Origin: Sandaracinus amylolyticus
Lineage (GTDB): Bacteria; Myxococcota_A; Polyangia; Polyangiales; Sandaracinaceae
DNA length: 64,000 bases
Direction of reading: 5' to 3'
Assembly: GCF_021631985.1 (NCBI RefSeq)
Contig: NZ_CP070225.1
Location: forward strand, 5,146,001 to 5,210,000
Position 1 is the stretch's first letter. Every line of letters starts with the position of its first letter. Under the pieces are notes generated by a model, which had not been told where the DNA came from, did no database searches, and was given only the letters and a program-made list of their open reading frames with translations. Positions 4,700-56,368 of this stretch are shown here, one piece after another. The position numbers and the translations under genes are program-made.

Positions 4700-4721
4700 G
4701 ATCGTTGGAGCTCCAACGATC
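4700..4721. repeat. 22-bp perfect palindrome, with a near-copy at 4763-4785
   Basis: Positions 4700-4721 read the same on both strands (core CGTTGGAGCTCCAACG). A degenerate second copy (CGTTGGACCTCCAACG) lies at 4767-4782. Together they bracket the terminator hairpin at 4736-4763. Two related palindromes of this kind could be operators or part of a terminator cluster. No regulator can be assigned. Confidence 0.5.
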
Positions 4722-4735
4722 GGAAACGACGTAGG

Positions 4736-4763
4736 CGCGGGTGCCGAGGTGTCGGCACCCGCG
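4736..4763 (-). terminator. hairpin terminator of the asparaginase gene
   Basis: A 12-bp perfect stem (CGCGGGTGCCGA against TCGGCACCCGCG) with a 4-nt loop starts 24 bp past the asparaginase stop codon. On the minus strand it is followed by a moderately T-containing stretch. It probably separates this transcript from the DUF1592-DUF1552 operon. Confidence 0.55.
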
Positions 4764-4786
4764 ATTCGTTGGACCTCCAACGATCT

Positions 4787-5893: not shown

Positions 5894-6038
5894 CGCGCTC
5901 CTCCGCCCCGTGCTCGATCACGAAGCACGCCACGATCACGACGCGCTGCGCTGCGCGACGGCTCGAGCGTTCGTCGTGGCGCAGCGCCCGCGCGCGATGC
6001 GGTACGCGCGCTGCACCGAGCGAGCGCTCGCGGCCCCG

Positions 6039-6509
6039 ATGACTGCGAACGCGACCCACCACGACGAGCGCGACGCAGCGGTCGATCCGGCATCGCTCAC
6101 GGTGAGCCCGACCGCGCCCACCCACTTCGCGTGGCTGAGGACGCGCATGGCGATGGAGCGAACGCTGCTCGCGTGGGTGCGCACCTCGGCCGCGCTCGTC
6201 GGCTTCGGCTTCACGGTCGTGCAGTTCTTCGAGCGCGTGGGGAGCTTCCAGGGCGCGCACCCCGCGCTCCTGCCGCACGCGCCTCGCGTCTTCGGGCTCG
6301 CGCTGATGATCGTGGGGACGGCGGGGCTCGCGCTCGCGCTCGTCCAGCACCGCGCGCTGCGCAAGCACCTGTGGGGCCCGGCGTTCCTCCCGGTCGCCGG
6401 GGTGTCGGGCCTCGATCGTCACCTCAACCCGCCGCTCTTCGTCAGCGTGGCGCTGCTCCTCGCGAGCATCTGGGCCACCGCGGCGGTGCTCGTGCGCCTC
6501 GGCACGTGA
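6039..6509 (+). CDS. DUF202 (YidH-type) membrane protein
   Basis: A 156-residue inner-membrane protein starting at the ATG at 6039, which leaves a soluble N-terminus of about 35 residues. The family signature L-R-T-R-M-A-M-E-R-T-L-L-A-W-V-R-T comes just before the first membrane segment (S-A-A-L-V-G-F-G-F-T-V-V-Q-F-F). Two more membrane helices follow (G-L-A-L-M-I-V-G-T-A-G-L-A-L-A-L and F-V-S-V-A-L-L-L-A-S-I-W-A-T-A-A-V-L-V). The molecular role of DUF202 is not firmly established. The gene lies 13 bp upstream of the SulP transporter, whose ribosome site is in that gap, so the two are an operon and may work together. Confidence 0.82.
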   Translation: MTANATHHDERDAAVDPASLTVSPTAPTHFAWLRTRMAMERTLLAWVRTSAALVGFGFTVVQFFERVGSFQGAHPALLPHAPRVFGLALMIVGTAGLALALVQHRALRKHLWGPAFLPVAGVSGLDRHLNPPLFVSVALLLASIWATAAVLVRLGT

Positions 6510-6522
6510 GCCTCGGAGGACG

Positions 6523-39089: not shown

Positions 39090-39180
39090 AAAGATCGGCT
39101 CGCCCGCGGGTCCCTACCGTCCGCGCGCTTCGCGCGCTCCCATCCGGGACCTGCGGGACGAGCACTCCGGCAAGGACTCA
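39090..39180 (+). repeat. dispersed ~90-bp repeat, copy 1
   Basis: Runs from AAGATCGGCTCGCCC through a GCGCGC-TTC-GCGCGC hairpin core to GGACGAGCACTCCGGCAAGGACTCA. The final TCA is the stop codon of the following minus-strand gene. Copy 2 is at 40798-40888 and a reverse, more divergent copy at 59194-59266. Confidence 0.75.
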
Positions 39181-40698
39181 GCTCGCGGGAAACGCCGTCC
39201 AGCCTGCGGTCCAGTCGTCGCCGTCCGGCGCGAACGCGCCCACGTAGTCGGCGCTCGTGTCGAAGAACGCAGGGCGCGTCTCGCCGTCGTTCTCGGACGG
39301 CGAGACCGCGTGGCTCGCGCCCACGGGCGCGCCCGCGGTCGGAGCCCAGTCGGGTGTCGCGGTGTCGAAGGGAGCAGCCAGCATCGGATCGGCCGACTGG
39401 ATCGCGCGCTCCGCAGCCGTGAAGAACGACTGCTCGTCGATCATGTCGGCGCCGCCACCGCCCGCCGGGAACAGCGTCGCAGCGCCGCCCTGCGCGACGA
39501 TGGAGTGCGAGATCACGAATGTCGCCGGCGTCGCCTGGAGGTTCGCCGACGCGGCGTCACCGACGATGTCGATCACACCGCCGCCGAAGCCGAGCACGAT
39601 CGCATTCGCGATCGTGCCGGTGTGATTGCCACGCAGGAACAGACCGACCTGACCGTTGGGAGAACCACCCACGTTCGTGCCGATCAGCGTGATGTTGAAG
39701 ATCCGAGGAGCCGCCGCGCGCGCGCCGTCCGCGGCCTCGATTCCGTCCGACTCCGCGTTGGTGCCCGGATGCTGCTGTCCCACGAGGAACTGCACGCGTC
39801 CCCGGAACGCATAGTCGTAGTCGAAGAGCTCGTCTGCCGCGCCGGTGATCACCACGTGCGAGATGTCGGGCTCGCCACCGAACACCTCGATCCCGTCGTC
39901 GTCGGACAGGTGCGATTGGACGTGATCGAGGCGCGTTCCGTGACCGCACGAATAGAGCTGGATCCCGTTCGTCTCGTTCCCACTGCCACCGCGATTGAAG
40001 CTCGCGAACTCGACTCGCACGTAGCGCAGCGTGCCGCACTCCCACGACGGATCGGGCTCGGCGCCGATCGGCCCGTCCTCGAGATACCCCGCGAGATCCG
40101 CTTCGGAGATCGACGACGTCGAGAGCGGGAATCCCTCCGGGTTCCGGCTCGGCGCGGCCCGCCCGATGAGCGTGATTCCACCCCAGTCACCGGGGCGGCG
40201 CGCGCCCTCGTCGCGCGCCGAGGTGAACACGATCGGATCCTCGGCCGTGCCCTCGGCCTCGAGCCGGCCGTTGCGCGTGACGAGCAGCACACCGAGCCCG
40301 GTCGCACCACGGATCACGGTGCCCGGCTCGATCGTGAGGACGCGCGGTGCGCCGGGATCGGGGGAGTGCACCGCGACGATCCCGTTCAGTGAATAGACGT
40401 GGTCGCACGTCCACGTGTGATCGCTCGCGAGCACACCTTCGGCGACGTCGATGACGGTACGCGCTGCGAGCGGCGGACATCGCGAGGAGCCACCGTCGGT
40501 GGCCGCGTCGACGGCGGAGTCGCTCGCGTCCGTCGCGCCGGAGTCAGCGGGGCCTCCGTCGAGACCGGCATCGTCGCCTCCGTCCGCGACCTGTGAGCCC
40601 GAGTCCCGGCCCGCGTCGGAGCCCGTCGCGTCGTCGTCGTCGCCGCACGCCGCGAGCGAGCACATCGCGACGACGAGAAGAGCACATCGATGGTGCAT
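39178..40698 (-). CDS. beta-helix-like lipoprotein, paralog 1
   Basis: A 506-residue lipoprotein (lipobox L-A-A-C, Cys18) with a 40-residue Asp/Gly/Ser linker. The domain opens with H-T-W-T-C-D-H-V-Y-S-L-N-G and has I-E-P-G-T-V-I-R-G, G-D-W-G-G-I-T-L-I-G-R-A and R-Y-V-R-V-E-F. Spaced Val/Ile/Asn strands then follow to the C-terminal D-D-W-T-A-G-W-T-A-F-P. This suggests a right-handed parallel beta-helix. Two paralogs are at 40886 and 51921, the latter in a TonB operon, so a role in capturing or handling a ligand at the cell surface is inferred. The ATG at 40698 has GGAGG upstream. Confidence 0.78.
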   Translation of the reverse strand: MHHRCALLVVAMCSLAACGDDDDATGSDAGRDSGSQVADGGDDAGLDGGPADSGATDASDSAVDAATDGGSSRCPPLAARTVIDVAEGVLASDHTWTCDHVYSLNGIVAVHSPDPGAPRVLTIEPGTVIRGATGLGVLLVTRNGRLEAEGTAEDPIVFTSARDEGARRPGDWGGITLIGRAAPSRNPEGFPLSTSSISEADLAGYLEDGPIGAEPDPSWECGTLRYVRVEFASFNRGGSGNETNGIQLYSCGHGTRLDHVQSHLSDDDGIEVFGGEPDISHVVITGAADELFDYDYAFRGRVQFLVGQQHPGTNAESDGIEAADGARAAAPRIFNITLIGTNVGGSPNGQVGLFLRGNHTGTIANAIVLGFGGGVIDIVGDAASANLQATPATFVISHSIVAQGGAATLFPAGGGGADMIDEQSFFTAAERAIQSADPMLAAPFDTATPDWAPTAGAPVGASHAVSPSENDGETRPAFFDTSADYVGAFAPDGDDWTAGWTAFPAS

Positions 40699-40797
40699 GA
40701 GACCTCCGAGCGCGAGCGTTGCTCGCGCGCCTCGCCGCGCCGCGTCATCCCGGCAACAACGCCGGAAAATCCGATCCGCGGCGATTCGAAGAGTGTC

Positions 40798-40888
40798 GAA
40801 AATCGGCTCGCCCACCGGTCCCTAACGTCCGCGCGCTTCGCGCGCTCCCGTCCGGGCCCCGCGGGACGAGCACTCCGGCAAGGACTCA
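40798..40888 (+). repeat. dispersed ~90-bp repeat, copy 2
   Basis: Closely similar to 39090-39180: AAAATCGGCTCGCCCACCGG at the left, the GCGCGCTTCGCGCGC hairpin core, and CGGGACGAGCACTCCGGC plus GGACTCA at the right, where TCA is again the stop codon of a minus-strand lipoprotein gene. Confidence 0.8.
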
Positions 40889-42352
40889 GTCCGCCGGATA
40901 GCGCGTCCACCCGAGCGTCCAGTCGAGCGCGTCGCGCGCGCCCGGCGTCTCGCCGACCGGAGGAATCGCACCGCGATAGTCCGCCTCGACGTAATCCGAC
41001 GCCCACTCCGAAGGTCCGTCGTCGAACGGCTCGTCGGCAATCACCGCGAGACCTGCGGTGAAGTCCGGCTCCGTGCCCGGCAGCGCATAGGCATTCCTCA
41101 TCAGCGCTGCGCCCGGGAATCGATTTCCCGCCGTCGCCATGCGGAAATAAGCACTCTCGTCCATTCCCTCGTCGCCGTCCTCGTCGGCGCCGGGGAATTG
41201 TCCGCGGGTCGTGCTCGCCGGTGCGTCGACGAACACCGAGTCACGGATTCCGAACATCGGCACACGCGCCGCGGTCTCGGCGTCGAGCACGTTCGCCCAA
41301 TATCCCTCGAATCCCTGGACGAGCGACGTGTGGACGGACCCGAGAGATCCGTATTGCAGCGCGACGCCGACCTCGGTGCCGTTCGCGCCGCCGTCCGGCC
41401 CGGTGCCGCGCGCGCCGACGAGCGTGACATTGTAGAGCGTCGGATTCGCCTCCGGCTCTCCCGCGGGCGGCACCGGCTGACCCTCGCGGCGACTGCCCTT
41501 CAGCGCGGCCGTCGCGTCGGGGAACGTCTGCACGATCGCGAACTGGATGAAGCCCGTGTATCCAGCGCCCCACTCGATCCCATCGAATCGCGGCGCGGTG
41601 ATCACGAGGTGGCTCGCCGCGAACCGACCTCCGACGAGGCCCAGTCCGTCCGACGAGCGGTGCACCTGCACGTGGTCGACGCGCGTGCGCGTCCCGCACC
41701 CCGCGAGCGTGAGGCCTGCTGCGGGTTGGTCGACGACGTTGCCCGCAGCGTCGGAGTCGCCCGCGAACTCGACGCGCACGTAGCGCAGCGAGCCGCAGTC
41801 GTGATCTGCGACGTTGCCGCCGAACGCGCCGCGCGCATCGCCGGCGTCGAGCGTGTCGGGCACGCGGGACGTGGTGCTGTTGAGGCCGGTGGGCGCGGCG
41901 CCCAGCAGGACGATTCCGCGCCACTGCCCGGGCGCCGCCGGCTCGGTGCTCGGGCCGAACACGATCGGCGCTGCGCGCGTGCCCTCCGCGACCAGACGCG
42001 CGCCCTTCGCGACGAGCAACATCGCGCCATCGGCCGCGCGCACCCGCGTGCCGGGCTCGACCGTGAGCGTGCCGCCGGTGACGAGCACGTCTCCATCGAG
42101 GATCCAGTCGTGCGCGCAGTCCCACGTCGTGTCCGAGGAGATCGTGGTCGCGGCGGCGATGCGCTCCTCGGGGCGCTCCGCCGGGCATCCCGCGCCCGAG
42201 TCCGCGACGCCGGTGTCCGGGACCTGCTGGGTGGCATCCACACTGCCACCGTCGCGACGATCGTCGCCCGGTGCGAGTCGGATGCACGACGCGACGAAGA
42301 GAATCGTCGTGACGGACACCCACGCTCGTCCGATTCGCGCCGGCGACCTCAC
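40886..42352 (-). CDS. beta-helix-like lipoprotein, paralog 2
   Basis: A 488-residue lipoprotein whose GTG start overlaps the stop of the TPR gene (GTGA, 42349-42352). Lipobox V-A-S-C (Cys21). The domain has T-T-W-D-C-A-H-D-W-I-L-D-G-D-V, V-E-P-G-T-R-V-R-A, G-Q-W-R-G-I-V-L-L-G-A-A, R-Y-V-R-V-E-F-A-G and ends L-D-W-T-L-G-W-T-R-Y-P-A-D, matching paralog 1 in every landmark. It is co-transcribed with the TPR membrane protein and probably the two kinases further up. Ligand unknown. Confidence 0.78.
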   Translation of the reverse strand: MRSPARIGRAWVSVTTILFVASCIRLAPGDDRRDGGSVDATQQVPDTGVADSGAGCPAERPEERIAAATTISSDTTWDCAHDWILDGDVLVTGGTLTVEPGTRVRAADGAMLLVAKGARLVAEGTRAAPIVFGPSTEPAAPGQWRGIVLLGAAPTGLNSTTSRVPDTLDAGDARGAFGGNVADHDCGSLRYVRVEFAGDSDAAGNVVDQPAAGLTLAGCGTRTRVDHVQVHRSSDGLGLVGGRFAASHLVITAPRFDGIEWGAGYTGFIQFAIVQTFPDATAALKGSRREGQPVPPAGEPEANPTLYNVTLVGARGTGPDGGANGTEVGVALQYGSLGSVHTSLVQGFEGYWANVLDAETAARVPMFGIRDSVFVDAPASTTRGQFPGADEDGDEGMDESAYFRMATAGNRFPGAALMRNAYALPGTEPDFTAGLAVIADEPFDDGPSEWASDYVEADYRGAIPPVGETPGARDALDWTLGWTRYPAD

Positions 42353-43464
42353 AGCGACACTCCGCACGCGACTCCGATCTCGCCGGGCCCGGCCCCGCAG
42401 CCGAACATCGGCGCGGGCGCCTCCGCGACGGGCTCGGCTCCTTCGATCAGCGGCGCCTCGTCGGCGCGCGAGCTGCCCGACGGCGCGACCGCGAACGTCA
42501 CGATCGCGGCGACGAGGAGCGCCCCGCCGATGCCGTAGAGGACGAACGAGATCGTCTCGTTCGTGCGTGCGCTGTCGTCGAGCCCCGGACACGTCTCCGC
42601 GCGGGTCGCGAGCTCGGGCGCAGCGCCGAGGCACGCGTCGGAGCTCCACTCGCCGGCGAGGCGATGCGCTTCGCTCGTCGAGACTCCGCCACCGACCGCG
42701 AGCCCGATCGCACCCGCCGCGAGCGCGGCGCCTGCCACGTAGAAGGGTGTCGGGTCGACGGCGGGCGCGAGGGCGCGCGACGCGTCGTCGCCGCCGGGCA
42801 CGACCGCGACCTCGATCGGCGCGAGCTCGGCGCGCTCGGGGCTCTCGTCGCTCCCGCGCCGGTACACGCGATTGCCGAGCTCGTCGAGCATCGCGACCGA
42901 ATATTCGACCGAGCGCGCCGTCGTGAGCTCCGGAATCGGAATCGTGATCACGTCGCTCGGCGCGCGAGCGACCTCGCGCCAGCTCCCGCCCTCGCTGCGC
43001 ACGCGCACGCGATAACGCGACACCATGCGCGCAGGGTCGGCGGCGCGCGCGACGAGCGACGACGTCTCCTCGTCGAGCTCGACCTGCACGCCGAGGCGAT
43101 CGGTCGTGCCGGTCCAGAACCCGCGCGCCTCGAGGTAGGGGCTGCGGATCTCCGCTGGAAGGTCGGTGTCGAGCCGCACGTCGGGCGTGATCGCGAGCAG
43201 GCGAGTGAACGCATCGCGCGCGGCGTCGGCGTCACCCAGCGCCGCGCTCGCGAGACCGATCACGCGCTGCAGCGCGGCGACGTCGTCGGGCTCGGACGTG
43301 CCCTGCTCCAGCGCGTCTCGCGCGATGCGCCGTGCTCGCTCGTGCTCGCCGCGCCGCCGCGCCGTCTCCGCGGTGCGCGCGACCTCCTGCGACTGCGCGC
43401 TCACGACCGCTGGGAGCGCGCCGATCGCGACGAGAGCGCAAATGCAGAGCGGGAGTCGAAGCAC
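42349..43464 (-). CDS. TPR-type protein with two C-terminal membrane segments
   Basis: A 371-residue protein with signal peptide (L-C-I-C-A-L-V-A-I-G-A-L-P-A-V-V-S-A-Q), a helical TPR region (about 25-100), a middle beta-rich part and two membrane stretches (about 258-278 and 316-336) with a loop containing three cysteines between them. It resembles the frameshifted gene at 37536. Its stop overlaps the start of the beta-helix lipoprotein downstream. Role unknown; probably an envelope scaffold or sensor protein. Confidence 0.72.
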   Translation of the reverse strand: MLRLPLCICALVAIGALPAVVSAQSQEVARTAETARRRGEHERARRIARDALEQGTSEPDDVAALQRVIGLASAALGDADAARDAFTRLLAITPDVRLDTDLPAEIRSPYLEARGFWTGTTDRLGVQVELDEETSSLVARAADPARMVSRYRVRVRSEGGSWREVARAPSDVITIPIPELTTARSVEYSVAMLDELGNRVYRRGSDESPERAELAPIEVAVVPGGDDASRALAPAVDPTPFYVAGAALAAGAIGLAVGGGVSTSEAHRLAGEWSSDACLGAAPELATRAETCPGLDDSARTNETISFVLYGIGGALLVAAIVTFAVAPSGSSRADEAPLIEGAEPVAEAPAPMFGCGAGPGEIGVACGVSL

Positions 43465-43660
43465 GCGCCGACTCTAGCCCAAACGAACCTGGTGGCGACT
43501 CCGATCGTGTCGGCGTCGACTGCGCGTCACGAGGAGCACACGAATCGGTCACGCAGTCGTCGGCGCTCTGGACGACGCCAATCACGCGCACCGCGCATTC
43601 GCGCACTGCTCGTGGTGCGCGGGGTCGTCTGCTGCGCTCGATTCTTCACGAGACGGACGC

Positions 43661-45568
43661 TCATTCGAGCGCGATCCGTCGCGAGGTGGGCTGTCCGGCC
43701 TCGACCGTGACTCGATAGGTCGTCTCGATTCCGCGCTCGGGATTGCGGAGTGTGAGCGTGTGTGTCCCCGCGGGGAGCTCGACGTTCTCGAGCGGCGTGA
43801 TGCCCAGCCGTCGTCCACCGAGGAACACGATCGCCCACGGCGTGGTGTCGAGCGAGAGTTGGCCCGTCGCGACCTGGCTCGGCGGCGAGGGCGCGGGCGC
43901 GAGCTCGGCCGTCGTGGCCACCGGCGGCGGCGCGGGCGCAGCAGCACGCACGCCCGTCGCGGGCCGGCGCACCGGCGACCGCGCGCCGCCGCGGCGCGAA
44001 TCGATCGAGGGCGCCTGCGGTAGCTCGTCTCGCGCCGCCGCCGGGCTCGTCACCTCGGGGCGCGGCTCGATCGGCGCGCTGGGCTCGGGCCCCACGGGCG
44101 CGCTGCCTGCGACCGGGGCCGGCGCCGCGGCAGGCTCGGGCGAGACGGTCGTCTCGGCCGTCGTCTCACCGCCGATCGCGAAGGGCACCACGACCGCGAG
44201 CAACACTCCGATCACGACCGCGCCCGCGATCGCGACGAGCTTCCAGCGCGCGTCCGGTGCGCGCTCCGCGCGCGTCACGTCGAGGACCGGCGGTGCCTTG
44301 ACCACCTTCGCCGAGGTCGTGACCGGCGTGCCCTCGCGCGGCAGCGGCCCCGGCGCGCCGATCCGGAGCTCGCCGCTCACCGCGTCGACCTGTGCGAGGC
44401 AGACTCGCAGCGACTCCTTCTGGGCCTCGATCGTGTCGGAGAAGACGGTCCGCATCAGCGCGGCGAGCGTCGTTCGAGAGCTCGCGCGCGACTGCGTCGC
44501 GAGCCAGTCGTCGAGGTCCTGCTTGAATTCGGCGGCCGTCGCGTATCGCCGATCGGGATTTCGCTGCAGCGACTTGTCGACGATGCGTGCGAGCTCGTCG
44601 GGCACGCCCGTGACGACGTCACCCAAGCGGGGAATCTCGTCGTTCAGCGTGGCGTGCAGGATCGCGACGTCCGAGGCTCCGCGGAACAAGCGCCGTCCTG
44701 CCAGGCACTCCCAGAGCGTGATTCCCATGCTCCAGAGATCCGCGCGCCGGTCGACGACCTCTCCGCGGGCCTGCTCGGGCGCGATGTACGCGAACTTCCC
44801 CTTGATCAGACCGGTGCGGGTGTTCGACTCCTGCGTCACCGCCTTCGCGATCCCGAAGTCCAGCAGCTTCACTTGGCCGTCGTACGTGACGAAGAGGTTG
44901 TGGGGAGAGACGTCGCGATGGACGATCTGGAGCGGAGTCCCGTCGTAATCGCGCGCCTCGTGTGCGTAGTGGAGGCCATCGAGCGCGTCGGAGACGACAC
45001 GCGCCGCAATCGGTGGAGGGATCACCCCGTGATCATCGCGAGTGCGTTTGATCACTCGATTGAGCGGTTGTCCGTCGAGGTACTCCATCGCGAGGAAATG
45101 GTGTCCTCGATGACTGCCCACCTTGTTCGTCTGGACGACGTTCGGGTGGTGCAGTCGTGCGGCCAGCTTCGCCTCGTCGAGGAACATCTCGACGATCTGC
45201 GGCTCGTCCTTCATGTGCGCGTGCAGGCGCTTGATCACGAGCAGCTTGCGGAAGCCGTTCGGACCCTGCGAGAGCGCGAGAAAAACCTCGGCCATCCCGC
45301 CGTGACCGAGCTTTCCGACGAGCACGTACTCGTCGAATCGCTCCATCGCCACGGGCGAGAGATGCAACGTCGCGCTCGACGTGACGCTGGTGGGGACCGT
45401 CCCGGTCGCGACGGTCCCAGTGGCGTCCGCGCGCGCCTCGGCTTTCGTGCTCGTACGCACTCGCCGCGAGTATTCGGCCAACTCGGTCGAGCGCAATCGA
45501 GGATCGGAGTCGTTCGCCGATTCTTCACGATGGAATCTCGATGAGCGTGCGAGTGCGACATCGGTCAT
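43661..45568 (-). CDS. Ser/Thr protein kinase with C-terminal PEGA domain
   Basis: A 635-residue kinase. Gly loop G-H-G-G-M-A at 88-93, V-I-K lysine 113, H-R-D-V-S-P-H-N at 217-224 (V-S-P-H in place of L-K-P-E, common in myxobacteria), D-F-G 237-239, I-A-P-E-Q. One transmembrane helix (about 447-470), a long P/A/T-rich external linker, and a final PEGA beta-domain (about 570-635; T-P-L-E-N-V-E-L-P-A-G-T-H-T-L-T-L). The N-terminal ~70 residues are disordered. It begins 24 bp after the kinase-PhnD gene ends, so both kinases are in one transcript. Confidence 0.92.
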   Translation of the reverse strand: MTDVALARSSRFHREESANDSDPRLRSTELAEYSRRVRTSTKAEARADATGTVATGTVPTSVTSSATLHLSPVAMERFDEYVLVGKLGHGGMAEVFLALSQGPNGFRKLLVIKRLHAHMKDEPQIVEMFLDEAKLAARLHHPNVVQTNKVGSHRGHHFLAMEYLDGQPLNRVIKRTRDDHGVIPPPIAARVVSDALDGLHYAHEARDYDGTPLQIVHRDVSPHNLFVTYDGQVKLLDFGIAKAVTQESNTRTGLIKGKFAYIAPEQARGEVVDRRADLWSMGITLWECLAGRRLFRGASDVAILHATLNDEIPRLGDVVTGVPDELARIVDKSLQRNPDRRYATAAEFKQDLDDWLATQSRASSRTTLAALMRTVFSDTIEAQKESLRVCLAQVDAVSGELRIGAPGPLPREGTPVTTSAKVVKAPPVLDVTRAERAPDARWKLVAIAGAVVIGVLLAVVVPFAIGGETTAETTVSPEPAAAPAPVAGSAPVGPEPSAPIEPRPEVTSPAAARDELPQAPSIDSRRGGARSPVRRPATGVRAAAPAPPPVATTAELAPAPSPPSQVATGQLSLDTTPWAIVFLGGRRLGITPLENVELPAGTHTLTLRNPERGIETTYRVTVEAGQPTSRRIALE

Positions 45569-45592: not shown

Positions 45593-47431
45593 TCACTTGT
45601 TCTCCACACGCGCGGCACCGGGCTCGAGGCGACCGACCAGGAGCGCACGCTCGAGCCCGCGATAGCGCTCGTGGACGCCGGGCGCGATGCGCGTCGCGCC
45701 CACCAGCTTCGCGAGCGGCGCGGCCGCGACCTCGTCGGTGAGCGACGCGCGCACCGCGCGCGCGACATCGTCGGGCAGGAGCGCCGACGCGCAGAGCGTG
45801 TCTCCGGGGATCGGCGCGCTGACGTCGATCACGGTCACACCGTGCTCGTCGGACCAGGGTCGCCGCACGATCTCGCCGTCGGCGCCCACCGTGCAGAACG
45901 CGGCGCCGACGTCGGCCGCGCCGGACGCGAGCGCGTCGAGGACGGCCTCGTAGGAGCCCACGAACCCCTGCGATCGCAGCGCGAGGTCGGGATCGACGCC
46001 GCGCTCGCACAGGAGCGCGCGCGGCACGAGGTATCCAGCCGCCGACCAGTTGTCGACCCACACCGCTCGACGACCCGCGACGTCCTCGTACGACGAGACC
46101 ACGCCGCGACGGCCGAGCAGCGCGGACGCGTACTGCGCGCGACCGTCTCGCTCGACCGAGACCAACATCCGCACCGCGCCGAGGCGCGCCGCGCGCACGT
46201 ACGCGACGGGCGGCAACCACGCGAGATCCACGTCGCCCTCGCCCACCGCGTCGACGAGCTCGGCGTAGCTGCGGAAGCGGTCGATCTCACACCCTCGATC
46301 GAGCGCGGATCGGAACGCGTCGCGAAGCTGCACGGAGTCGAGGTCGCGCGCGTCGTTCACGATTCCGATGCGCAGCGCGCGCACCGACTCTGCGCTGACG
46401 AGCGAGCTCTCGTCGATCGTCACGCGCTGGACGCTCGGGACGCTGACGCGGTTCAGCTCGACGACCGTCGGGTCGGGATCGTCGTCGTCGTCGAGCTCGT
46501 CGAGCGGGTGATAGCCGGCGGGCGGAGGGACCGTGCGCGCCTCGTCGGCCTCGGTGATCGACGCGAGCATCGTCGCGAGCTCGCGCATCGTGGGCCGCAG
46601 CGCGGGATCGACCGAGAGCGCGGCGCGGATCGGCGTCGCGAACGCGTCGTGCACACCCACGAGCAGGCGCGGGCTCGTCGCGTCGAGCTTGGAGATCTCC
46701 CGGAGGAGCAGATGCAGCTGGGTCGACTCGTAGGGGACGCGCCCGGTGAGCGCCTCGTGGAGACACACGCCGATCGACCACACGTCGGCGGGAGGTCCGA
46801 CCTCGTCGTCGACGATCTGCTCGGGGGCCATGTAGTGCGGCGTGCCCAGCAGCGTTCCGTCCAGCGTGATGCGGGTGTACGGGTGGTCGTCGATCCGCTT
46901 GGCGATGCCGAAGTCGACGAGCTTGGGGACGAGCAGGCCGCGCGGGTCGCGCGCGAGCACGATGTTCGAGGGCTTCACGTCGCGGTGCACGATCCCGAGC
47001 TCGTGCGCCGACGCGAGCGCGTCGATCACGGGCAGGAAGATGGTGAGCAGCTCGTGCGTGGAGAGCCGCCCGACGCGATCGAGCCGCTCGTGCAGATCCT
47101 CGCCCTCGAGCAGCTCCTGCACGAGGAAGAGCGAGCCGTCCTCGGCGGCGCCCATGTCGAGGACGTCGACCACGTTCGGGTGGGAGAGACGCGACGCGGT
47201 GCGTGCCTCTTCGAAGAGCCTCCGCTGCACCGTGCGTGGCAGTCCGGGGTGCATCAGCTTCAACGCGACGCGCCGGTGCGTCCACGTGTTGATCGCCTCG
47301 TGCACCACACCCATCCCGCCTCGTCCGATCTCGCGCAGGAGCTCGTATTTCTGCGCGATGGGCGAGGATCGATGAGCCGTGGGGGGCGCGTGATCGGACT
47401 CCGCGACTCCACGTGGAACTGCGGCGCTCAT
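45593..47431 (-). CDS. Ser/Thr protein kinase fused to a PhnD-like substrate-binding domain
   Basis: A 612-residue fusion. Kinase domain about 29-290: G-R-G-G-M-G 37-42, V-A-L-K lysine 58, H-R-D-V-K-P-S-N 149-156, D-F-G 173-175, M-A-P-E-Q. After an acidic linker (D-E-L-D-D-D-D-D, about 311-319) comes a PhnD-type periplasmic-binding-protein fold (about 352-585): L-R-I-G-I-V-N, D-L-A-W-L-P-P-V-A-Y-V, S-S-Y-E-D-V-A-G-R-R-A-V-W-V-D, S-A-A-G-Y-L-V-P-R-A-L-L and S-G-A-A-D-V-G-A-A-F. No transmembrane segment or signal is present, so the binding domain is probably cytoplasmic and may sense an internal anion, phosphonate or similar ligand. The kinase looks active. First gene of a two-kinase operon. 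Confidence 0.9.
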   Translation of the reverse strand: MSAAVPRGVAESDHAPPTAHRSSPIAQKYELLREIGRGGMGVVHEAINTWTHRRVALKLMHPGLPRTVQRRLFEEARTASRLSHPNVVDVLDMGAAEDGSLFLVQELLEGEDLHERLDRVGRLSTHELLTIFLPVIDALASAHELGIVHRDVKPSNIVLARDPRGLLVPKLVDFGIAKRIDDHPYTRITLDGTLLGTPHYMAPEQIVDDEVGPPADVWSIGVCLHEALTGRVPYESTQLHLLLREISKLDATSPRLLVGVHDAFATPIRAALSVDPALRPTMRELATMLASITEADEARTVPPPAGYHPLDELDDDDDPDPTVVELNRVSVPSVQRVTIDESSLVSAESVRALRIGIVNDARDLDSVQLRDAFRSALDRGCEIDRFRSYAELVDAVGEGDVDLAWLPPVAYVRAARLGAVRMLVSVERDGRAQYASALLGRRGVVSSYEDVAGRRAVWVDNWSAAGYLVPRALLCERGVDPDLALRSQGFVGSYEAVLDALASGAADVGAAFCTVGADGEIVRRPWSDEHGVTVIDVSAPIPGDTLCASALLPDDVARAVRASLTDEVAAAPLAKLVGATRIAPGVHERYRGLERALLVGRLEPGAARVENK

Positions 47432-47557: not shown

Positions 47558-48445
47558 ATGACGCGAGCGGGGTCGCACGTAGAGGTGAATCGGAGGCGCT
47601 TCGGGATGCGATCGGCTCGTGTCAGGCTCGTGCGAAGGGTCGCGATCGGCGCGATCCTCGTGGTGATCATGGTCTTCGGCTTCGCGACCCGACTGCAGCG
47701 TGCGCTGCTCTTCCACCCCGACGCCGCGCCCACGAACGAGGCGATCGCGGCGCGCGTGCCCGGCCTCGAGCGCTGGTGGCACGAGAGCGAAGAGGGGCGG
47801 GTCGAGGCGTGGTTCATCCCGGGCGACGGGGTCTCGGCGGAGTCGCCGGGCCCGCTCGTGATCTACGCGCACGGCAACGCAGAGGTGATCGATCCACTGC
47901 CGCTCTGGCTGGGGCCCTATCGCACGATGGGGATCTCGGTGCTGCTGCCCGAGTATCGCGGCTACGGGCGCAGCGAAGGCACACCGAGCGAGCGCGCGAT
48001 CCGCGAGGACCTCGTCGCGTTCCACGATCGCGCGGTCGCGCGCCCCGAGGTCGATCCCTCGCGCGTCGTGCTGCACGGCGTGTCGCTCGGAGGTGGTGCG
48101 GTGGCGCAGCTCACGCGAGAGCGCCCGCCCGCGGCGATGATCCTGCAGTCGACGTTCGCGAGCGTCGCCGAGATCGCGTGGGAGCTCTATCGCGCGCCGC
48201 GCTTCTTGATCTCGGATCCCTTCGACACGATCCGCGTCCTGCGCGGCACGAGCACGCCCGTGCTGCTGCTGCACGGCCGGCGCGACACGGTGGTCCCGTT
48301 CGCGCACAGCGAGCGCCTGCAGCGCGCGCTGCCGCGCAGCGAGCTCGTCGCGTGCGACGCGGGGCACAACGATCTTCCGCCCGCCGATCTCGACTACTGG
48401 GGCGAGATCCGCGCGTTCCTCGAGCGCAGCGACGTCCTGCGCTGA
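47558..48445 (+). CDS. membrane-anchored alpha/beta hydrolase
   Basis: A 295-residue hydrolase. One N-terminal anchor (V-A-I-G-A-I-L-V-V-I-M-V-F-G-F). Oxyanion H-G-N-A (Y-A-H-G-N-A-E-V), nucleophile G-V-S-L-G-G-G, Asp in G-R-R-D-T-V-V-P and catalytic His in C-D-A-G-H-N-D. The layout is like Bem46/ABHD-type hydrolases. The first ATG is used; 47606 (with GGAGG upstream) is a good alternative that removes 16 residues. Substrate unknown. Divergent from the kinase operon. Confidence 0.85.
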   Translation: MTRAGSHVEVNRRRFGMRSARVRLVRRVAIGAILVVIMVFGFATRLQRALLFHPDAAPTNEAIAARVPGLERWWHESEEGRVEAWFIPGDGVSAESPGPLVIYAHGNAEVIDPLPLWLGPYRTMGISVLLPEYRGYGRSEGTPSERAIREDLVAFHDRAVARPEVDPSRVVLHGVSLGGGAVAQLTRERPPAAMILQSTFASVAEIAWELYRAPRFLISDPFDTIRVLRGTSTPVLLLHGRRDTVVPFAHSERLQRALPRSELVACDAGHNDLPPADLDYWGEIRAFLERSDVLR

Positions 48446-48465: not shown

Positions 48466-49356
48466 ATGGCACGCATCGTCCCGGAAGTCTGGAACATCCC
48501 CGCTCGACTGCGCGAGAAGGTGGGCCCGCGCGCGGGCCGACAGCGACTCATGACGCTCGACGGGCACGTGCTGCTGCTCCTGCACCAGGTCCCCCGCGAC
48601 GCCGATCCCGATCGCCACGCCGTCGTGTTCTGGCGCGACGTGGAGGGCGACTGGCGCTGCGCACCGGGCCGCGACGACATCGCGACCCTGCAGACGCACG
48701 TCGACGCCTACGCGAAGTACGTCGACGAGCTCGAGGAGCAGCTCGCGAAGGCGTGTCGCGCCGAGGAGTACCTCGCGGTGGTGCGCGCCGCGCGCCCGGT
48801 GCAGCGCGCCGCGCGCCACATGTACCAAGCGCTCGCGCAGCTCCGCGAGACGCTGCCCGAGGACGATCGTGTCCTGCCGATCCGCGACCTCGCGTACGAG
48901 GTCGAGCGCGCGATCGAGCTGCTCGTCGAAGAGGCCGACGGAGAGATGCAGTTCCTGGTCGCGAAGCGCGCCGAGGAACAAGCGCGCTTGTCGGAGCGGA
49001 TCTCGATCCAGACGCACCGACTGAACATGATCGCGGCGCTCTTCCTGCCGATCACCGCGCTCGGCGCGATCCTCGGGATGAACCTCGAGAACGGCCTCGA
49101 GCACCTCCCGGAGCCGGTCACGTTCTGGTCGATCGTCGCCGGCGCGTTCCTGGTGGGGTTCTTGATTCGATCGCAGGTCGCGCGAGAGCGTGGCGGACGA
49201 TTCGCCGTGGCGACACGGAGACGACACGGGTGCTCGGTCGAATCGCGCTCATGCGATCACGACTGCGCACACGTCTCGGAATCGGACTCTCGGTCTTTCT
49301 CGCGGCGTGCGACGGCGCTGCCGCGACTCCTCGGGACGGCGCGCAGCGCATCGTGA
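48466..49356 (+). CDS. CorA-like divalent cation transporter-family protein
   Basis: A protein of up to 296 residues with a CorA-type C-terminal part: a long helix (S-E-R-I-S-I-Q-T-H-R-L-N-M) leading into TM1 (I-A-A-L-F-L-P-I-T-A-L-G-A-I-L-G-M-N), with the G-M-N signature near residue 205, and TM2 (F-W-S-I-V-A-G-A-F-L-V-G-F-L-I). The N-terminal domain is shorter than in typical CorA. The frame then runs on another ~50 residues and overlaps the PstS-like gene by 106 bp; that tail is low complexity and probably not conserved. Mg2+ transport is possible but the short N-terminus leaves it open. Confidence 0.72.
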   Translation: MARIVPEVWNIPARLREKVGPRAGRQRLMTLDGHVLLLLHQVPRDADPDRHAVVFWRDVEGDWRCAPGRDDIATLQTHVDAYAKYVDELEEQLAKACRAEEYLAVVRAARPVQRAARHMYQALAQLRETLPEDDRVLPIRDLAYEVERAIELLVEEADGEMQFLVAKRAEEQARLSERISIQTHRLNMIAALFLPITALGAILGMNLENGLEHLPEPVTFWSIVAGAFLVGFLIRSQVARERGGRFAVATRRRHGCSVESRSCDHDCAHVSESDSRSFSRRATALPRLLGTARSAS

Positions 49357-50261
49357 TCGACGGGTCGAGCACGGTGTTCCCGCTGAGCGAGGTGGTCGCG
49401 GAGGCATTCCATCAGTCGTCGCGCGCTCCGATCAGCGTCGACGAGTCCGGCACCGGAGGCGGCTTTCGGATCTTCTGCGAGGGTGACAGTGCGATCCACG
49501 GCGCGTCGCGCCCGATCACTGCGGAAGAGATGGAGCGCTGTCGCGCGGGTGGCGTCGAGTACGTCGAGCTCCCGGTGGCGTACGACGGGATCGTCGTCGT
49601 GGTTCACGAATCGAATTCGTGGGCGAGCTCGATGACGCTCGCGGACCTGCGACGGCTCTTCGGGGCGGACGCGACGGAACAGGTGACTCGCTGGCGACAG
49701 GTGCGCGCGGAGTGGCCCGATCGCGAGCTGCACGTCTATGCGCCCGGCAGCGACTCCGGCACGTTCGACACGTTCACCGAAGCCGCGCTCGGGACGCCGC
49801 GCTCGATGCGCACCGACTACGACGCGAGCGAGGACGACGACTACATCGTTCGTCGCATCCTGCGCGATCCGAATGGGATCGGCTTCGTCGGATATTCGTA
49901 CTTCGCGCACAACCGCGCGCTGCTGCGCGCGGTCGCGATCGACGATGGGAACGAGATGAACGGAGTCGGCGCGATCGCGCCCGGACCGGCGACGATCGCG
50001 GACGGCTCGTACCAGCCGCTCTCGCGCCCGCTCTTCGTCTACGTCTCGCGCGCTGCGCTCGATCGGCGCGAGGTCGCGCAGCTCACCGAGCTCTACCTGC
50101 GCGAGGCCCGCACGCTGGTGCCGCGCGCGGGGATGGTCACGCTGCGCCCGCGCGCGTACGAGCTCGGCCTCGCGCGGCTGCGCACGATGACGACCGGCTC
50201 GGTGTTCGCATACGCGCAGCTGCGCGAGGGGCTGACGGTCGAGCAGGCGCTCGAGGAGTGA
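49251..50261 (+). CDS. PstS-like phosphate-binding lipoprotein
   Basis: A 336-residue substrate-binding protein with lipobox L-A-A-C (Cys20). Phosphate-loop features: D-G-S-S-T-V-F-P-L-S-E, S-G-T-G-G-G-F and G-A-S-R-P-I (equivalent to PstS S-R-x-I), and S-D-S-G-T-F-D-T-F. The length and pattern fit the PstS family of the PBP superfamily. It stands alone: no PstC/A/B genes are nearby, so it may supply a pump encoded elsewhere or work as a sensor for the PhoB/PhoR-like pair 12 kb away. Confidence 0.85.
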   Translation: MRSRLRTRLGIGLSVFLAACDGAAATPRDGAQRIVIDGSSTVFPLSEVVAEAFHQSSRAPISVDESGTGGGFRIFCEGDSAIHGASRPITAEEMERCRAGGVEYVELPVAYDGIVVVVHESNSWASSMTLADLRRLFGADATEQVTRWRQVRAEWPDRELHVYAPGSDSGTFDTFTEAALGTPRSMRTDYDASEDDDYIVRRILRDPNGIGFVGYSYFAHNRALLRAVAIDDGNEMNGVGAIAPGPATIADGSYQPLSRPLFVYVSRAALDRREVAQLTELYLREARTLVPRAGMVTLRPRAYELGLARLRTMTTGSVFAYAQLREGLTVEQALEE

Positions 50262-51920: not shown

Positions 51921-53375
51921 TCACTGGACCGGGAACGCCGTCCAGCCCTCGGTCCAGTCCGGGCACTCCGGACCGATCGCGCCGACGTAGGTCGCGTTCG
52001 TCGCGAAGCCCGCGGGCGGCGTCGCGCCGCCGGTCGCGACGATCGACTCGTCCGCCGGCGAGTAGTCGGGCGCCGTGTCGCTGACCGCGGTGAGCATCGG
52101 GTTCATGCCCACGCGGTTCATCGCGCCTGCCGCGCTGAACGCAGTGGCCTCGGCCGAGCCCGCCGTGAAGTCCGCGTCGTTGTCGTAGAACACGCTGTTG
52201 TTGAACGTCAGCATCGTGCCCGCGGCGGCCTCGCCGGCCGCATCGCGGACGTCCACCGCGAGCGGGAAGCCCTGCACGATCGAGTTGCGGATCGTGCCGT
52301 AGGTGCCGCGGCGGAGCACCGCGCCGACCTGGTTCGCACGCGTCGCGTCGGTCGTGACGATCGTCAGGTTGAAGACCGTCGGGTTCGAGCGCGGCGTCGC
52401 GTCGTTGCTGCCGTTGAGGTTGTCTGCCTCGATGCCGTTCGGGTCGCCGGTGCCGGCGTCCGAGAAGCGGTGGATGACCATGAACTGCACGCGGCCGACG
52501 AAGCCCTGATCCCAGTCGAGGCCGTCGTCCTCCATGCCGCTCGCGACGAGGTAGCGGAGGTTCGGCGAGCCGCCGAAGATCTCGAACGCGTCGTCGCTGC
52601 CGCGGTGCATCTGCACGAACTCGATGTCCGTGTCGCTGCCGCAGCCGCCGAGCGTGAGGCCGTTGAGCTCGTTGCCGACGCCGATCGCGCGGCCCGCGTA
52701 CTCGATGCGGGTGTAGCGCATCGTGCCGCAGTCGTGCGCGGCCGCGGTGCCGCCGTAGACGCCGCGCGTGTCCGCCGCCTCGATGCCCTCGATGTTGTCG
52801 GTGCCGCCGGTCACGTTGATCGGCGCGTTGCCGAGGAGGACGATGCCGCCCCAGTCACCGCGGTTGCGCGCGCCCGCCGCGCGCGAGGACGTGAAGACGA
52901 TCGGCGCATCCGGGTGGCCCTGCGCGTCGATGCGCGCGCCCGGCGTGACGATGAGCGCGCCGTCCATGTCGCCGACGATGCGGGTGCCCGCGCCGATCGA
53001 GAGGACGCCCGACGTGACGAACACGTTACCGGTCAGGCGGTAGGTGTTCGCACAGGTCCAGTTCGCGCCGGCGAGATCACCACCAGCGACGACGACCTCC
53101 GTCGGATTCGCAGGGCACGAGGGCGGCGCCGGCGGCGCGGCGATCTCGGGGCAGTACTCGGGGAGCTCGATCTGGCCGGCATCCGTGTCACCGGCGTCTT
53201 CGTCGTCGGGAGGACCCGAGTCCTCACCGCCCTGGCCCGAGTCGGTGCCGGAGTCCATGCGGATCGAGGCGTCGACGCCCGGATCGATCGAGTCGTCGTC
53301 ACCGCAGCCGACTGCCGCCATCGACGATCCACCGAGAAGAAGCCATGCAATTGCCAGGCGCCTGATATCTCTCAT
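51921..53375 (-). CDS. beta-helix-like lipoprotein, paralog 3 (TonB operon)
   Basis: A 484-residue lipoprotein (lipobox-like A-V-G-C, Cys24) with an Asp/Gly/Ser linker (D-A-S-I-R-M-D-S-G-T-D-S-G). The domain has W-T-C-A-N-T-Y-R-L-T-G-N-V-F-V, I-G-A-G-T-R-I-V-G, G-D-W-G-G-I-V-L-L-G-N-A-P and R-Y-T-R-I-E-Y-A-G, ending P-D-W-T-E-G-W-T-A-F-P-V-Q. It lies 50 bp downstream of the TonB-dependent receptor on the same strand. That genomic link makes a surface ligand-binding partner of the receptor the best inference. Confidence 0.8.
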   Translation of the reverse strand: MRDIRRLAIAWLLLGGSSMAAVGCGDDDSIDPGVDASIRMDSGTDSGQGGEDSGPPDDEDAGDTDAGQIELPEYCPEIAAPPAPPSCPANPTEVVVAGGDLAGANWTCANTYRLTGNVFVTSGVLSIGAGTRIVGDMDGALIVTPGARIDAQGHPDAPIVFTSSRAAGARNRGDWGGIVLLGNAPINVTGGTDNIEGIEAADTRGVYGGTAAAHDCGTMRYTRIEYAGRAIGVGNELNGLTLGGCGSDTDIEFVQMHRGSDDAFEIFGGSPNLRYLVASGMEDDGLDWDQGFVGRVQFMVIHRFSDAGTGDPNGIEADNLNGSNDATPRSNPTVFNLTIVTTDATRANQVGAVLRRGTYGTIRNSIVQGFPLAVDVRDAAGEAAAGTMLTFNNSVFYDNDADFTAGSAEATAFSAAGAMNRVGMNPMLTAVSDTAPDYSPADESIVATGGATPPAGFATNATYVGAIGPECPDWTEGWTAFPVQ

Positions 53376-53425
53376 GTTCTGTCCTTCGTTGGACTGCTTC
53401 GTCGCAGTCGTCGTGCGAGAAGTGC

Positions 53426-56368
53426 TCAGTACGAGTAGCCGACCGAGAGCGAGAACTGCGTGCCCGGGTCGTATCCGACGATGACGAAATCGCCCTGACG
53501 GAGCTCGCGGCGCTGGAAGAGGAGATTCTGCGCCGCGAATCGAATCGTCACGTGCGGATCGGGCTCCCACGTAGCCGTGAGATCGACAGAGTGGTACGGG
53601 TCGAGATAGACGTCGGGGAGCCCGAGCAGGCCGACGTCCTCCAGTCTCGGTCCGAAGATGTTGTAGTAGACGGCGAACGACAGATTGGTGTCGGGCGGCG
53701 CAATTCCCAGTTGCACGTTGACGATGTACGGCGGCTGTCCGGCGAGCGGCCGCTCCGAGCTCGTCGCCTGGAGGAGCTGGTCCTCCGTGAGGCGTGCACG
53801 CGAATAGACGAGCGCGAGATTGCCGCCGAGAGTGAGCCAATCCAGGCCGTCGACGAAGTGCCCGAAGTGCATCCGCGCCTCGAGCTCGACTCCGTAGTTC
53901 TCCGCGCCCGCGATGTTGCGATACGAGAGGTCACCGCCGCTCGACACGATCGTCTGCTCGATCGGCGCCTCGAACACCTTCGCGAAGCCGGAGACCGCGA
54001 GCACCTCGGACTCCGACGGGAACCACTCCCAGCGAAGGTCGAAGTTATGGATGTACGTGCGCTCGAGCTCCGGGTTGCCGGTGATGGTGCGACGGCGAAC
54101 GAAATCCGCGAAGAGGAACGGAGCCAGCTCGCGGACCTGCGGTCGCGCGACGGTGCCCGCATAGGAAGCGCGGACGAACATGTTGTCGTGGATCTCGACG
54201 ATCGCGCCGCCGCTCGGAAGCACGTCGACGTCGGTCCGACGCGTGCCGCGGATTTCGCTGGTCGTCATCCCGACCGGCGGAGCCGACTCCACGACCTGCC
54301 GGAACGCTTCGACGCGCGCGCCGGCGATCAGTCGAAGCGGCTGCCAGGGGCGCCACTCGCCCGAGAGATATCCCGCGTAGAGCGACTGCGTCGCATCATA
54401 GCTGTCGTCCTCTCGCGTGTACTCGCGGAGACTCGTGAACACGTTGATGAGCTCGGGCGAGAAGAGCGTCTCCGGCGGGAGCATCGTCCCCGACGGATCG
54501 GAGCCGGGTCGCGTCTGGAAGCCGAAGCGCCGGACTCGGAGGCCACGGTCGGTCTGACGCGTGAGACCACCGAGCCGAACCTGGAGCGTATCGATGGGGA
54601 TCGTGAGATTCGCGCCCGCGCCGTACGTGACGTCGTCGAGATCGGAATAGAAGCGTGCACCGCTCTCGGGGCCGGGAGCCCAGAAGCGCTGATCGCCGTT
54701 CTGGACGTACAGGATGTCGCGCAGGTCGGGCTGTTCGCGCTGGCCGTAGCTGAGGTTGAGCTGCCAATCGAAGCGCGCGCCCGCCGGGAGATCGGTGTGC
54801 TCTCCGAGCAGCTGTCCGTACGCGAGAGTCCGCTGCAACCACGACTGGCGTCGCGAGTCGATCTGGGTGCCGTAGTACTCGCTCACGCCGGTGACCCGCC
54901 CGAGGAAGTTGTCGGCGTTCTGGCTGAAGAGACCTGTGAACGTGAGCTGGTTCCGGTCGACGACCTCGAACGTCACCGTCGCGAGCGCGCTGAGCTGCGC
55001 CTGGATCTCGACGCCCTCCTGCTGCAGCTCCTCGCGGAGCGTGAGCATCGCGTCCTCGCCTTCGCCTTCGAGGCGGACTGCGCGGATGACGTCGGGAATC
55101 GGTCGCTCGGTGTATCGATATCCGACCATCAAGAGATAGCCGAGCAGATGACCGCCGACGTCGATCGTGTCTCCCATGCTGAAGGAGAGCGAGAGATTGG
55201 GCCACGCGGTGCGCCGGTTGGTCTGCCACGTGTTCGGGAACTGCAGCGCGAGCTGGTCGCGCTGCTCGGGCGTGAGATCGCCGGCACGCACGTTCTCCGC
55301 GCCACCGGGAAGGGCGCGAGTGCCGTCGTCGAACCCGAGGAAGTCGGTGGCGCCGCCTTCGTACCCCAGCGTGCGCTGGAACGAGACGGCCGTGTTCACG
55401 CCGAACCCGAGGCCGAATCGGAGCTGGAAGTCCGAAGGGAACGTCTGCGTCGAGACGTCGACGAGACCGCCCGCCCAGTCGCCGGGCACCTCGGGCGTGA
55501 AGGTCTTGCGGATCGTGAGCGCCTCGAGCAGGCCGCTCGGGAAGATGTCGAGCTGCACGCCGGGCACGTCGGGGTCGGTGTTGGGCAGCGCGACACCGTT
55601 GAGCGTGGTGACCACGTAACGTCCGCCGAGGCCGCGCACGTAGACGTAGTCGTCGCGGGTCACGACACCGACGGTTCGACGGACGGCCTCGCTCGCGCTC
55701 GAGTCGGGAGAGCGGCGCATCTCCTCGCTGGAGATCGCGTCCTGCACCGCCGCCGACTCACGACGCATGCGCAGCTGCGACGCCGCCGTCCCGCGCTCCG
55801 CGCGGACCTCGATCACGATCTCCTCGCCGGTGCTCGTCTCCGAGCTCAGCTCGACGTCGACTGCCGTGCACGACCCGCGCGTGACGACGATGTCGTCGAC
55901 GCGCGTCGGCTGATAGAGGTCGTAATACGAGCGGAGCGAGTACGTGCCCGGCGGGAGATCGATCGCGAAGCGACCGTCGTAGTCGGTCAGCACGCGAGTC
56001 CCGCGCCCGACGACGATCACCGGCGCTTCGATCATCGTCTCGCGCGTCTGCGCGTCGCGCACCACGCCTTCCACACCGGTGCCGCTGCAGTGCGGCGCGT
56101 CCGCGGCGAGCGCGGCGTCGATCTCGGCCTGCTCGGCCTCGCTGATGGCCGCTTCGTCGGCGGGCTCTTCGGCGGGCGCTTCCTCGGCGGGCTCGGTCGG
56201 CGCCGGGAGGGTCGCGTCTGGCGCGGTCGGGCCGCCTTCACCGCCCGCGGGGACGTCGCCGCCCCCGCCGCCCGGCGTCTGAGCGAGCGCGGGAGTCGTG
56301 ACACAAAGCGTCGTCACAATTGCGAGGACGCACCTCGCCCAGAGCGTCGGATTCACGACGGCACGCAT
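53426..56368 (-). CDS. TonB-dependent receptor 1
   Basis: A 980-residue outer-membrane receptor. Signal peptide to about residue 30, an A/E/P-rich extension (30-85), a carboxypeptidase-regulatory-like domain (about 95-175; V-E-G-V-V-R-D-A-Q-T, L-T-D-Y-D-G-R-F-A-I-D-L-P-P-G-T-Y-S-L), a plug (about 190-320; Y-V-Y-V-R-G-L-G-G-R-Y) and a barrel ending S-L-S-V-G-Y-S-Y. The N-terminal regulatory-like domain is typical of SusC-like/Myxococcota receptors. It is 41 bp downstream of exbD2 in a six-gene operon. Ligand unknown. The start has GAGG upstream. Confidence 0.9.
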   Translation of the reverse strand: MRAVVNPTLWARCVLAIVTTLCVTTPALAQTPGGGGGDVPAGGEGGPTAPDATLPAPTEPAEEAPAEEPADEAAISEAEQAEIDAALAADAPHCSGTGVEGVVRDAQTRETMIEAPVIVVGRGTRVLTDYDGRFAIDLPPGTYSLRSYYDLYQPTRVDDIVVTRGSCTAVDVELSSETSTGEEIVIEVRAERGTAASQLRMRRESAAVQDAISSEEMRRSPDSSASEAVRRTVGVVTRDDYVYVRGLGGRYVVTTLNGVALPNTDPDVPGVQLDIFPSGLLEALTIRKTFTPEVPGDWAGGLVDVSTQTFPSDFQLRFGLGFGVNTAVSFQRTLGYEGGATDFLGFDDGTRALPGGAENVRAGDLTPEQRDQLALQFPNTWQTNRRTAWPNLSLSFSMGDTIDVGGHLLGYLLMVGYRYTERPIPDVIRAVRLEGEGEDAMLTLREELQQEGVEIQAQLSALATVTFEVVDRNQLTFTGLFSQNADNFLGRVTGVSEYYGTQIDSRRQSWLQRTLAYGQLLGEHTDLPAGARFDWQLNLSYGQREQPDLRDILYVQNGDQRFWAPGPESGARFYSDLDDVTYGAGANLTIPIDTLQVRLGGLTRQTDRGLRVRRFGFQTRPGSDPSGTMLPPETLFSPELINVFTSLREYTREDDSYDATQSLYAGYLSGEWRPWQPLRLIAGARVEAFRQVVESAPPVGMTTSEIRGTRRTDVDVLPSGGAIVEIHDNMFVRASYAGTVARPQVRELAPFLFADFVRRRTITGNPELERTYIHNFDLRWEWFPSESEVLAVSGFAKVFEAPIEQTIVSSGGDLSYRNIAGAENYGVELEARMHFGHFVDGLDWLTLGGNLALVYSRARLTEDQLLQATSSERPLAGQPPYIVNVQLGIAPPDTNLSFAVYYNIFGPRLEDVGLLGLPDVYLDPYHSVDLTATWEPDPHVTIRFAAQNLLFQRRELRQGDFVIVGYDPGTQFSLSVGYSY

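Follow-up and report, generated by a model that had tools for sequence, protein, structure and literature searches.

The closest described relatives of the protein studied here are PhnD, PtxB and HtxB (PF12974, TIGR01098), with which it shares the domain family and, by profile homology, the fold; it retains their anion site in part, with the first serine and two tyrosines in place. Unlike these proteins, the one encoded in the window (the whole 64,000-nucleotide stretch of Sandaracinus amylolyticus DNA that was analyzed) has no signal peptide and no intact STS-H motif, is fused to a kinase, and comes from a genome without a match to the permease PhnE. In AioX and ArrX, the PF12974 domain is described as serving signaling and not transport (PMC5908839). 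AioX works in the periplasm, on a sensor histidine kinase that is a separate protein, whereas the window domain shares its chain with a soluble Ser/Thr kinase. Control of a soluble Ser/Thr kinase by a binding protein is described for GlnH-GlnX-PknG (PMC9769921); there, GlnH is an extracytoplasmic lipoprotein that works via a membrane protein, whereas the window protein is predicted to be one intracellular polypeptide. BstB, a PF12974 member reported to bind sterols and not phosphonates (PMC10942540), differs in being periplasmic and in having a single domain. Receptor-type Hanks kinases (PknB, PknS and the protein of locus L065) likewise have an N-terminal kinase and a C-terminal sensor, but the window protein has no membrane helix. 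In the L065 protein (genome G031), the window's domain pair takes the receptor form, with a helix between the two domains.

Myxobacteria encode up to hundreds of Ser/Thr kinases, with 353 reported for Minicystis rosea (PMC8436480). In the part of the open-licence literature that was searched, which included PMC11032199, PMC8436480, PMC7694542 and PMC12599244, no soluble kinase with a PF12974 domain was found. Public domain databases may well contain an entry for this domain pair. To our knowledge, it is not known what most myxobacterial Ser/Thr kinases sense. With a recognizable small-molecule pocket in the same chain, a soluble kinase allows this question to be approached by screening ligands against a single purified protein.

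The fusion gene is a single uninterrupted frame on the minus strand (Table 1). An initial annotation of the window had proposed a complete kinase domain, an acidic linker and a PhnD-type binding domain, in this order, and all three were recovered. The kinase part contains the G-loop (GRGGMG), the catalytic Lys (VALK) and the HRD (HRDVKPSN), DFG and APE motifs, by which it would be classed as a Hanks-type Ser/Thr kinase. Against the PASTA/PknB family NF033483, the protein scored 203.7 bits, below the cut-off of 450, and Pfam shows no PASTA domain. The linker contains the acidic stretch ELDDDDDPDPT. Pfam matched PF12974 (Phosphonate-bd) at residues 369 to 568 with an E value of 1.9e-34 and 119.6 bits (cut-off, 27), and the scores for the NCBIfam models TIGR01098 (80.1 versus 112.05) and PhnD (52.1 versus 261.1) were below their cut-offs.

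Table 1. Features of the kinase/binding-domain locus, in window coordinates
Feature	Position	Strand	Basis or remark
Membrane kinase with PEGA domain	43661..45568	minus	PF00069 + PF08308; co-directional, 24 bp downstream of the fusion gene
Kinase/binding-domain fusion gene	45593..47431	minus	612 aa, from the ATG at 47431 to the stop at 45593; 90% identity to the G008 ortholog
Hanks-type kinase domain, residues 29-286	46574..47347	minus	Pfam PF00069, E 5.7e-47; Lys58, HRD at 149, DFG at 173
Acidic, faster-evolving linker, residues 293-351	46379..46555	minus	Sequence (ELDDDDDPDPT) and dN/dS 0.441
Predicted PhnD-family type II binding-protein domain, residues 352-600	45632..46378	minus	PF12974 and PDB profile matches
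SAAGY motif, residues 463-467, replacing the STS anion-binding motif of PtxB/PhnD	46031..46045	minus	Alignment to 5o2j
Tyr494, at the site of PtxB ligand His155	45950..45952	minus	Alignment to PtxB
Asp544, at the site of PtxB cap Tyr203	45800..45802	minus	Alignment to PtxB
Divergent alpha/beta hydrolase	47558..48445	plus	Pfam; neighbor kept in G008, 84% identical

The description of the protein as lacking a signal peptide and membrane helix held. Its highest 19-residue Kyte-Doolittle mean was 1.46, compared with 2.87 for the neighboring PEGA kinase and 2.78 for the L065 protein by the same measure, so that the helix which separates kinase and sensor in transmembrane receptors was not seen in the window protein. 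Its N terminus is the kinase itself, without a hydrophobic segment, and no export signal was found on it.

The suspicion that a sequencing error had joined two genes is refuted for the window gene by its intact ortholog in the sister species (genome G008), which is 90% identical and a single frame. A further 15 genes have the same domain order in a single frame. An artefact of this kind finds a parallel in locus L068 (genome G324, positions 4703-6705; the same place as L092), where the kinase and the binding domain are in two different, overlapping frames, as a result of either a broken fusion or a mistake in the assembly. For the window gene, this explanation can practically be dismissed. Between the window gene and its G008 ortholog, dN/dS was 0.145 in the kinase and 0.175 in the binding domain, compared with 0.441 in the linker, and in the paralog pair it was 0.117 and 0.150 for the kinase and binding domain, respectively. 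Purifying selection acts on both domains of the fusion. Because of the single frame, the two Pfam domains, the 90% identical ortholog and the low dN/dS, we regard the gene product as a real, maintained two-domain protein.

The annotation's placement of a PhnD-family domain behind the kinase is also supported by profile matches to solved structures. A profile of 28 family domains matched the structures of PtxB (8.9e-35), AioX (3.9e-29) and Escherichia coli PhnD (2.9e-22) over nearly their full length. A predicted structure of the binding domain, made from a two-row alignment (window and L068), had a mean pLDDT of 38 and was unusable; the fold was therefore assigned by profile homology to solved PhnD-family members, which predicts a two-lobed type II PBP fold.

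The ligand residues of Pseudomonas PtxB are given as the motif S124, T125, S126 and H155, the ligand-bonding Y94, the cap residues Y203 and D16, and Y49 (PMC5700983). When the PtxB structure 5o2j was aligned to the family, the published residue numbers, including S124/T125/S126, were recovered exactly; D16 has no counterpart in the family alignment. The corresponding pocket of the window protein consists of Ser463, Ala464, Ala465, Tyr494, Tyr389, Tyr434 and Asp544, Ser463 being the first serine of the anion site. The same positions were compared across a branch of 23 related domains described below. The Thr125 column has Ala in 23 of 23 branch rows, and Thr in just 7 of the 79 rows outside the branch. 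The His155 column has Tyr in 16, His in 2 and other residues in 5 branch rows, compared with His in 74 of 79 outside rows. At the cap column (Tyr203), 21 of the 23 branch rows have Asp and the other 2 have Glu. Among the 67 rows counted as free in the comparison of the STS-H motif are secreted-looking relatives as well as L065, the membrane version.

With the STS-H motif broken (S-A-A and Tyr), a phosphonate or phosphate is an unlikely ligand. We therefore consider it very improbable that the protein is a receptor for phosphonate, phosphite or phosphate that works with a phosphate gene 2 kb away. The closest PDB and Pfam neighbors do bind phosphite and phosphonate, and a PstS-like phosphate-binding protein frame was recognized by eye at about 49217-50261 (plus strand), roughly 2 kb from the fusion gene. 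However, besides the loss of the motif, the PstS-like gene was not found in the 15-kb G008 locus, and the PhnE permease (TIGR01097) had no match at 1e-10 in any of four genomes (G000, G008, G246 and G357), the window's own included. The control search with PhnE gave a match in 10 of 14 known genomes.

The seven pocket columns have a mean entropy within the branch of 0.65 bits, versus 1.67 bits for random columns, and 0.12% of random draws were as low. This conservation, well above average, argues against a docking or dimerization module that selects substrates or partners and binds no small molecule. Such a module is unlikely here, even if PhnD-family proteins can act via protein contacts. The pocket is probably maintained for a ligand other than phosphite, phosphonate or phosphate, judging from its residues and their conservation. 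E. coli PhnD has an Asp at the cap that contacts an amino group (PMC5700983), and since the window protein has the same residue there, an amino-bearing ligand is possible; by analogy, we would offer it as a guess.

Relatives of the binding domain are widespread in the order Polyangiales. A match was found in 92 of 183 genomes of the order at 1e-25 (query, L041 domain) and in 34 of 282 genomes of a phylum sample at 1e-20 (query, the window's domain). The window's genome contains six domain matches at 1e-3, two of which are kinase fusions. In a separate scan of genome contigs for relatives, one locus, L068, was found; two scans of viral contigs gave no further relatives.

The domain order proposed for the window gene also occurs elsewhere. 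In the DNA around the fetched matches, 17 single-frame kinase fusions without a membrane-like segment were found, in 13 of the 183 genomes of the order, representing 8 genera and 3 families. Genomes G000, G008, G002 and G357 have two each, and G001, G003, G246, G321, G322, G323, G346, G347 and G366 have one each; the G003 fusion is cut by a contig end, and L010 also runs off its contig. Surrounding DNA was read for only part of the matches, so the count of 17 is a lower bound. L068, with its two domains in different frames, would be an eighteenth case. Among these 18 proteins (the 17 fusions and the L068 kinase frame), the highest 19-residue hydrophobicity means ranged from 1.16 to 1.91, and the top value (L120) is at residue 122, inside the kinase domain. 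The motif and hydrophobicity survey takes in L119, L120 and L128.

The statement that this fold is normally found outside the membrane proved incomplete. In at least 14 single-domain relatives in the order (L013, L023, L028, L030, L031, L044, L047, L052, L053, L056, L059, L061, L106 and L108), the most upstream possible start is just before the first strand, which leaves no room for a signal peptide. The domain is therefore often predicted to be cytoplasmic in this order. Exported forms also appear to exist. The L065 protein (positions 1-2211, the same gene in L083) has a membrane helix between its kinase and PF12974 domains; its binding domain groups with secreted-looking relatives, of which L057, L064 and L067 have lipoprotein-like N-terminal stretches (by eye).

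Other arrangements of the domain were observed as well. In L125:2368-4158, L126:2300-4072 and L131:1821-4364, PF12974 is fused to the permease domain BPD_transp_1, as a one-piece transporter half. Several large frames in which Pfam shows no partner domain (L042 and L054, among others) resemble over-long open frames that precede a single-domain gene. In L013, L062 and L133, a separate kinase frame is located beside a stand-alone binding-domain gene, an arrangement of which an occasional case is expected in kinase-rich genomes. In L075, L085 and L088, which belong to one genus, the stand-alone gene is flanked by genes whose lengths are conserved; a scan of those in L075 identified a sulfatase and an FMN oxidoreductase.

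The relationships of the domains were analyzed in two trees. The quick tree, with 102 domains, excludes repeat loci and rows of less than 110 residues. In it, 17 of the 18 fused rows and six single-domain rows form the branch of 23, with 99% SH-aLRT support; L090, one of the six, is cut by a contig end and may be fused. The careful tree, with 35 rows and without L128, has the same 23 on one side of a branch supported by 99/99. The remaining fused row, L128, is placed elsewhere in the quick tree, on a long branch. A separate origin of this fusion was first read from that tree, but a single branch of all 18 fused rows was not rejected (p-AU 0.5 for L128 joined to the branch), and one or two fusion events are therefore both possible.

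Catalytic residues have been lost in 3 of the 18 kinase domains. The G001 kinase lacks the catalytic Lys and the HRD Asp; G346 has Arg for Lys and GFG in place of DFG; and G347 has HRG in place of HRD, also with GFG. The kinases of G323 (HCD for HRD), G366 (HGD for HRD) and the second G002 protein (DFA for DFG) were not counted as dead because they keep the catalytic Asp and Lys. All three predicted dead kinases are in the window's sub-branch of nine rows (support, 98/94), together with the intact kinases of the window, G008 and two of G357. The sub-branch also contains the kinase-less domains L098 and L099, which group as the sisters of G346 and G347 (98/94); a kinase frame is absent from their fetched flank. 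On the tree, the three predicted dead kinases need two changes, i.e., at least two loss events. The pocket residues of L098 and L099 are the same as those of the window protein, as are those of G001 except for Asp to Glu. In G346 and G347, the pocket is altered too (Phe, Ser and Ala at three sites), and the kinase, with a dN/dS of 0.449, is still constrained relative to neutrality. What is new here is that kinase residues were lost at least twice in the 23-domain branch and that the sister of one dead pair is a binding domain alone with its pocket motif kept. This natural series of active, dead and lost kinases beside a kept pocket raises the question of which part is held by selection.

A dead kinase or a lone domain with a kept pocket counts against a sensor kinase, because a domain with no function other than regulating the kinase it is joined to would presumably decay once that kinase does. 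It may be that the binding domain is important even where the kinase is inactive. It is possible, but on the improbable side, that the essential part is the binding domain, as a cytoplasmic carrier, a sequestering protein, a noncatalytic receptor or a PBP-fold enzyme, and that the kinase is optional and has been silenced or dropped in some lineages. The predicted pseudokinases of G001, G346 and G347 fit this explanation, as do the single-domain sisters of the latter two with their kept pocket, the pocket of G001 and the common occurrence of single-domain relatives whose start leaves no space for a signal peptide. Cytosolic PBP-fold enzymes do exist, e.g., MqnA/MqnD and HemC. On the other hand, the window gene, its G008 ortholog and most other fusions have intact catalytic motifs; the window kinase has a dN/dS of 0.145; and in G346 and G347, pocket residues have changed too and the kinase is still constrained. 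The tree favors taking the essential role of the binding domain seriously, whereas the intact, constrained kinase of the window favors a sensor kinase.

Our preferred reading, to which we assign a probability of about 0.5, is that the protein is a soluble one-piece sensor kinase responding to an intracellular ligand. The occurrence of the same domain order in 17 genes, the constraint on both domains, the conserved pocket columns and the absence of a membrane segment are in favor of this reading, and the kinase probably responds to a ligand inside the cell. Pfam models for substrate-binding proteins (SBPs) are known to recognize cytosolic proteins and sensor domains as well (PMC9602780). In the proposed mechanism, the C-terminal two-lobed domain would close on a small molecule in the cytoplasm; this closure, via the flexible acidic linker, would alter how active the N-terminal Ser/Thr kinase is or which partners it chooses, and the kinase would in turn phosphorylate a target. 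We infer the cytoplasmic location, the ligand binding, the control of the kinase and the phosphorylation target. Because a binding domain of the nutrient-uptake type is apparently located inside the cell, the kinase may sense a metabolite of the cell directly. More tentatively, the Polyangiales could have an orphan family of cytoplasmic metabolite receptors with a binding-protein fold, uncoupled from transporters. One branch would have gained a Ser/Thr kinase in an old event, and the kinase would later have been silenced or dropped in some lineages while the pocket was kept, so that receptors and outputs were swapped in the cytoplasm.

The initial annotation had placed the gene in an operon with the membrane-bound PEGA kinase. 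The two genes are indeed co-directional and 24 bp apart in the window, but a conserved operon is not supported, given the absence of the PEGA kinase from the G008 locus. That locus keeps the divergent hydrolase and the next gene; on the other side, a gene matching the window at about 38 kb directly follows the fusion gene, which means that this locus lacks the PEGA kinase block. In G008, the best of the PEGA kinase matches listed is 53% identical. The PEGA kinase is a transcript partner in this species only, if at all. The block absent from this place in G008 (window 39178-45568) consists of the PEGA kinase, a TPR gene and two frames that by eye encode beta-helix-like lipoproteins, and a lipoprotein similar to these is found at window 51921-53840.

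When 17 stretches were compared, neighbors common to fusion genes were found within a genus only, save for one histidine-kinase match of 37% between G008 and L145. Thus, nothing in the neighborhood points to a pathway. A role in defense was considered and rejected: the PADLOC matches listed, which for the window are 25 of 33, are confined to the kinase domain. The single-domain loci L077 and L078, from different genera of one family, have several neighbors in common; a Pfam search of three of these gave no match above the cut-off.

The paralog of the window gene, i.e., the second kinase/binding-domain gene of its genome (L033:5168-7991), is located 37 bp before the uroporphyrinogen decarboxylase gene hemE and diverges from an amine-oxidase-family gene. 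The G008 paralog (L039) is located 11 bp before hemE. This adjacency was seen only in these two congeners among the loci compared, and the heme lead was therefore not extended to the window gene. FHA domains are phosphothreonine readers, and a sigma-54 activator with an FHA domain, together with a gene for an FGE-sulfatase domain, adjoins the kinase-less domains L098 and L099 (L145:74-3288, by Pfam, and L146, by homologs).
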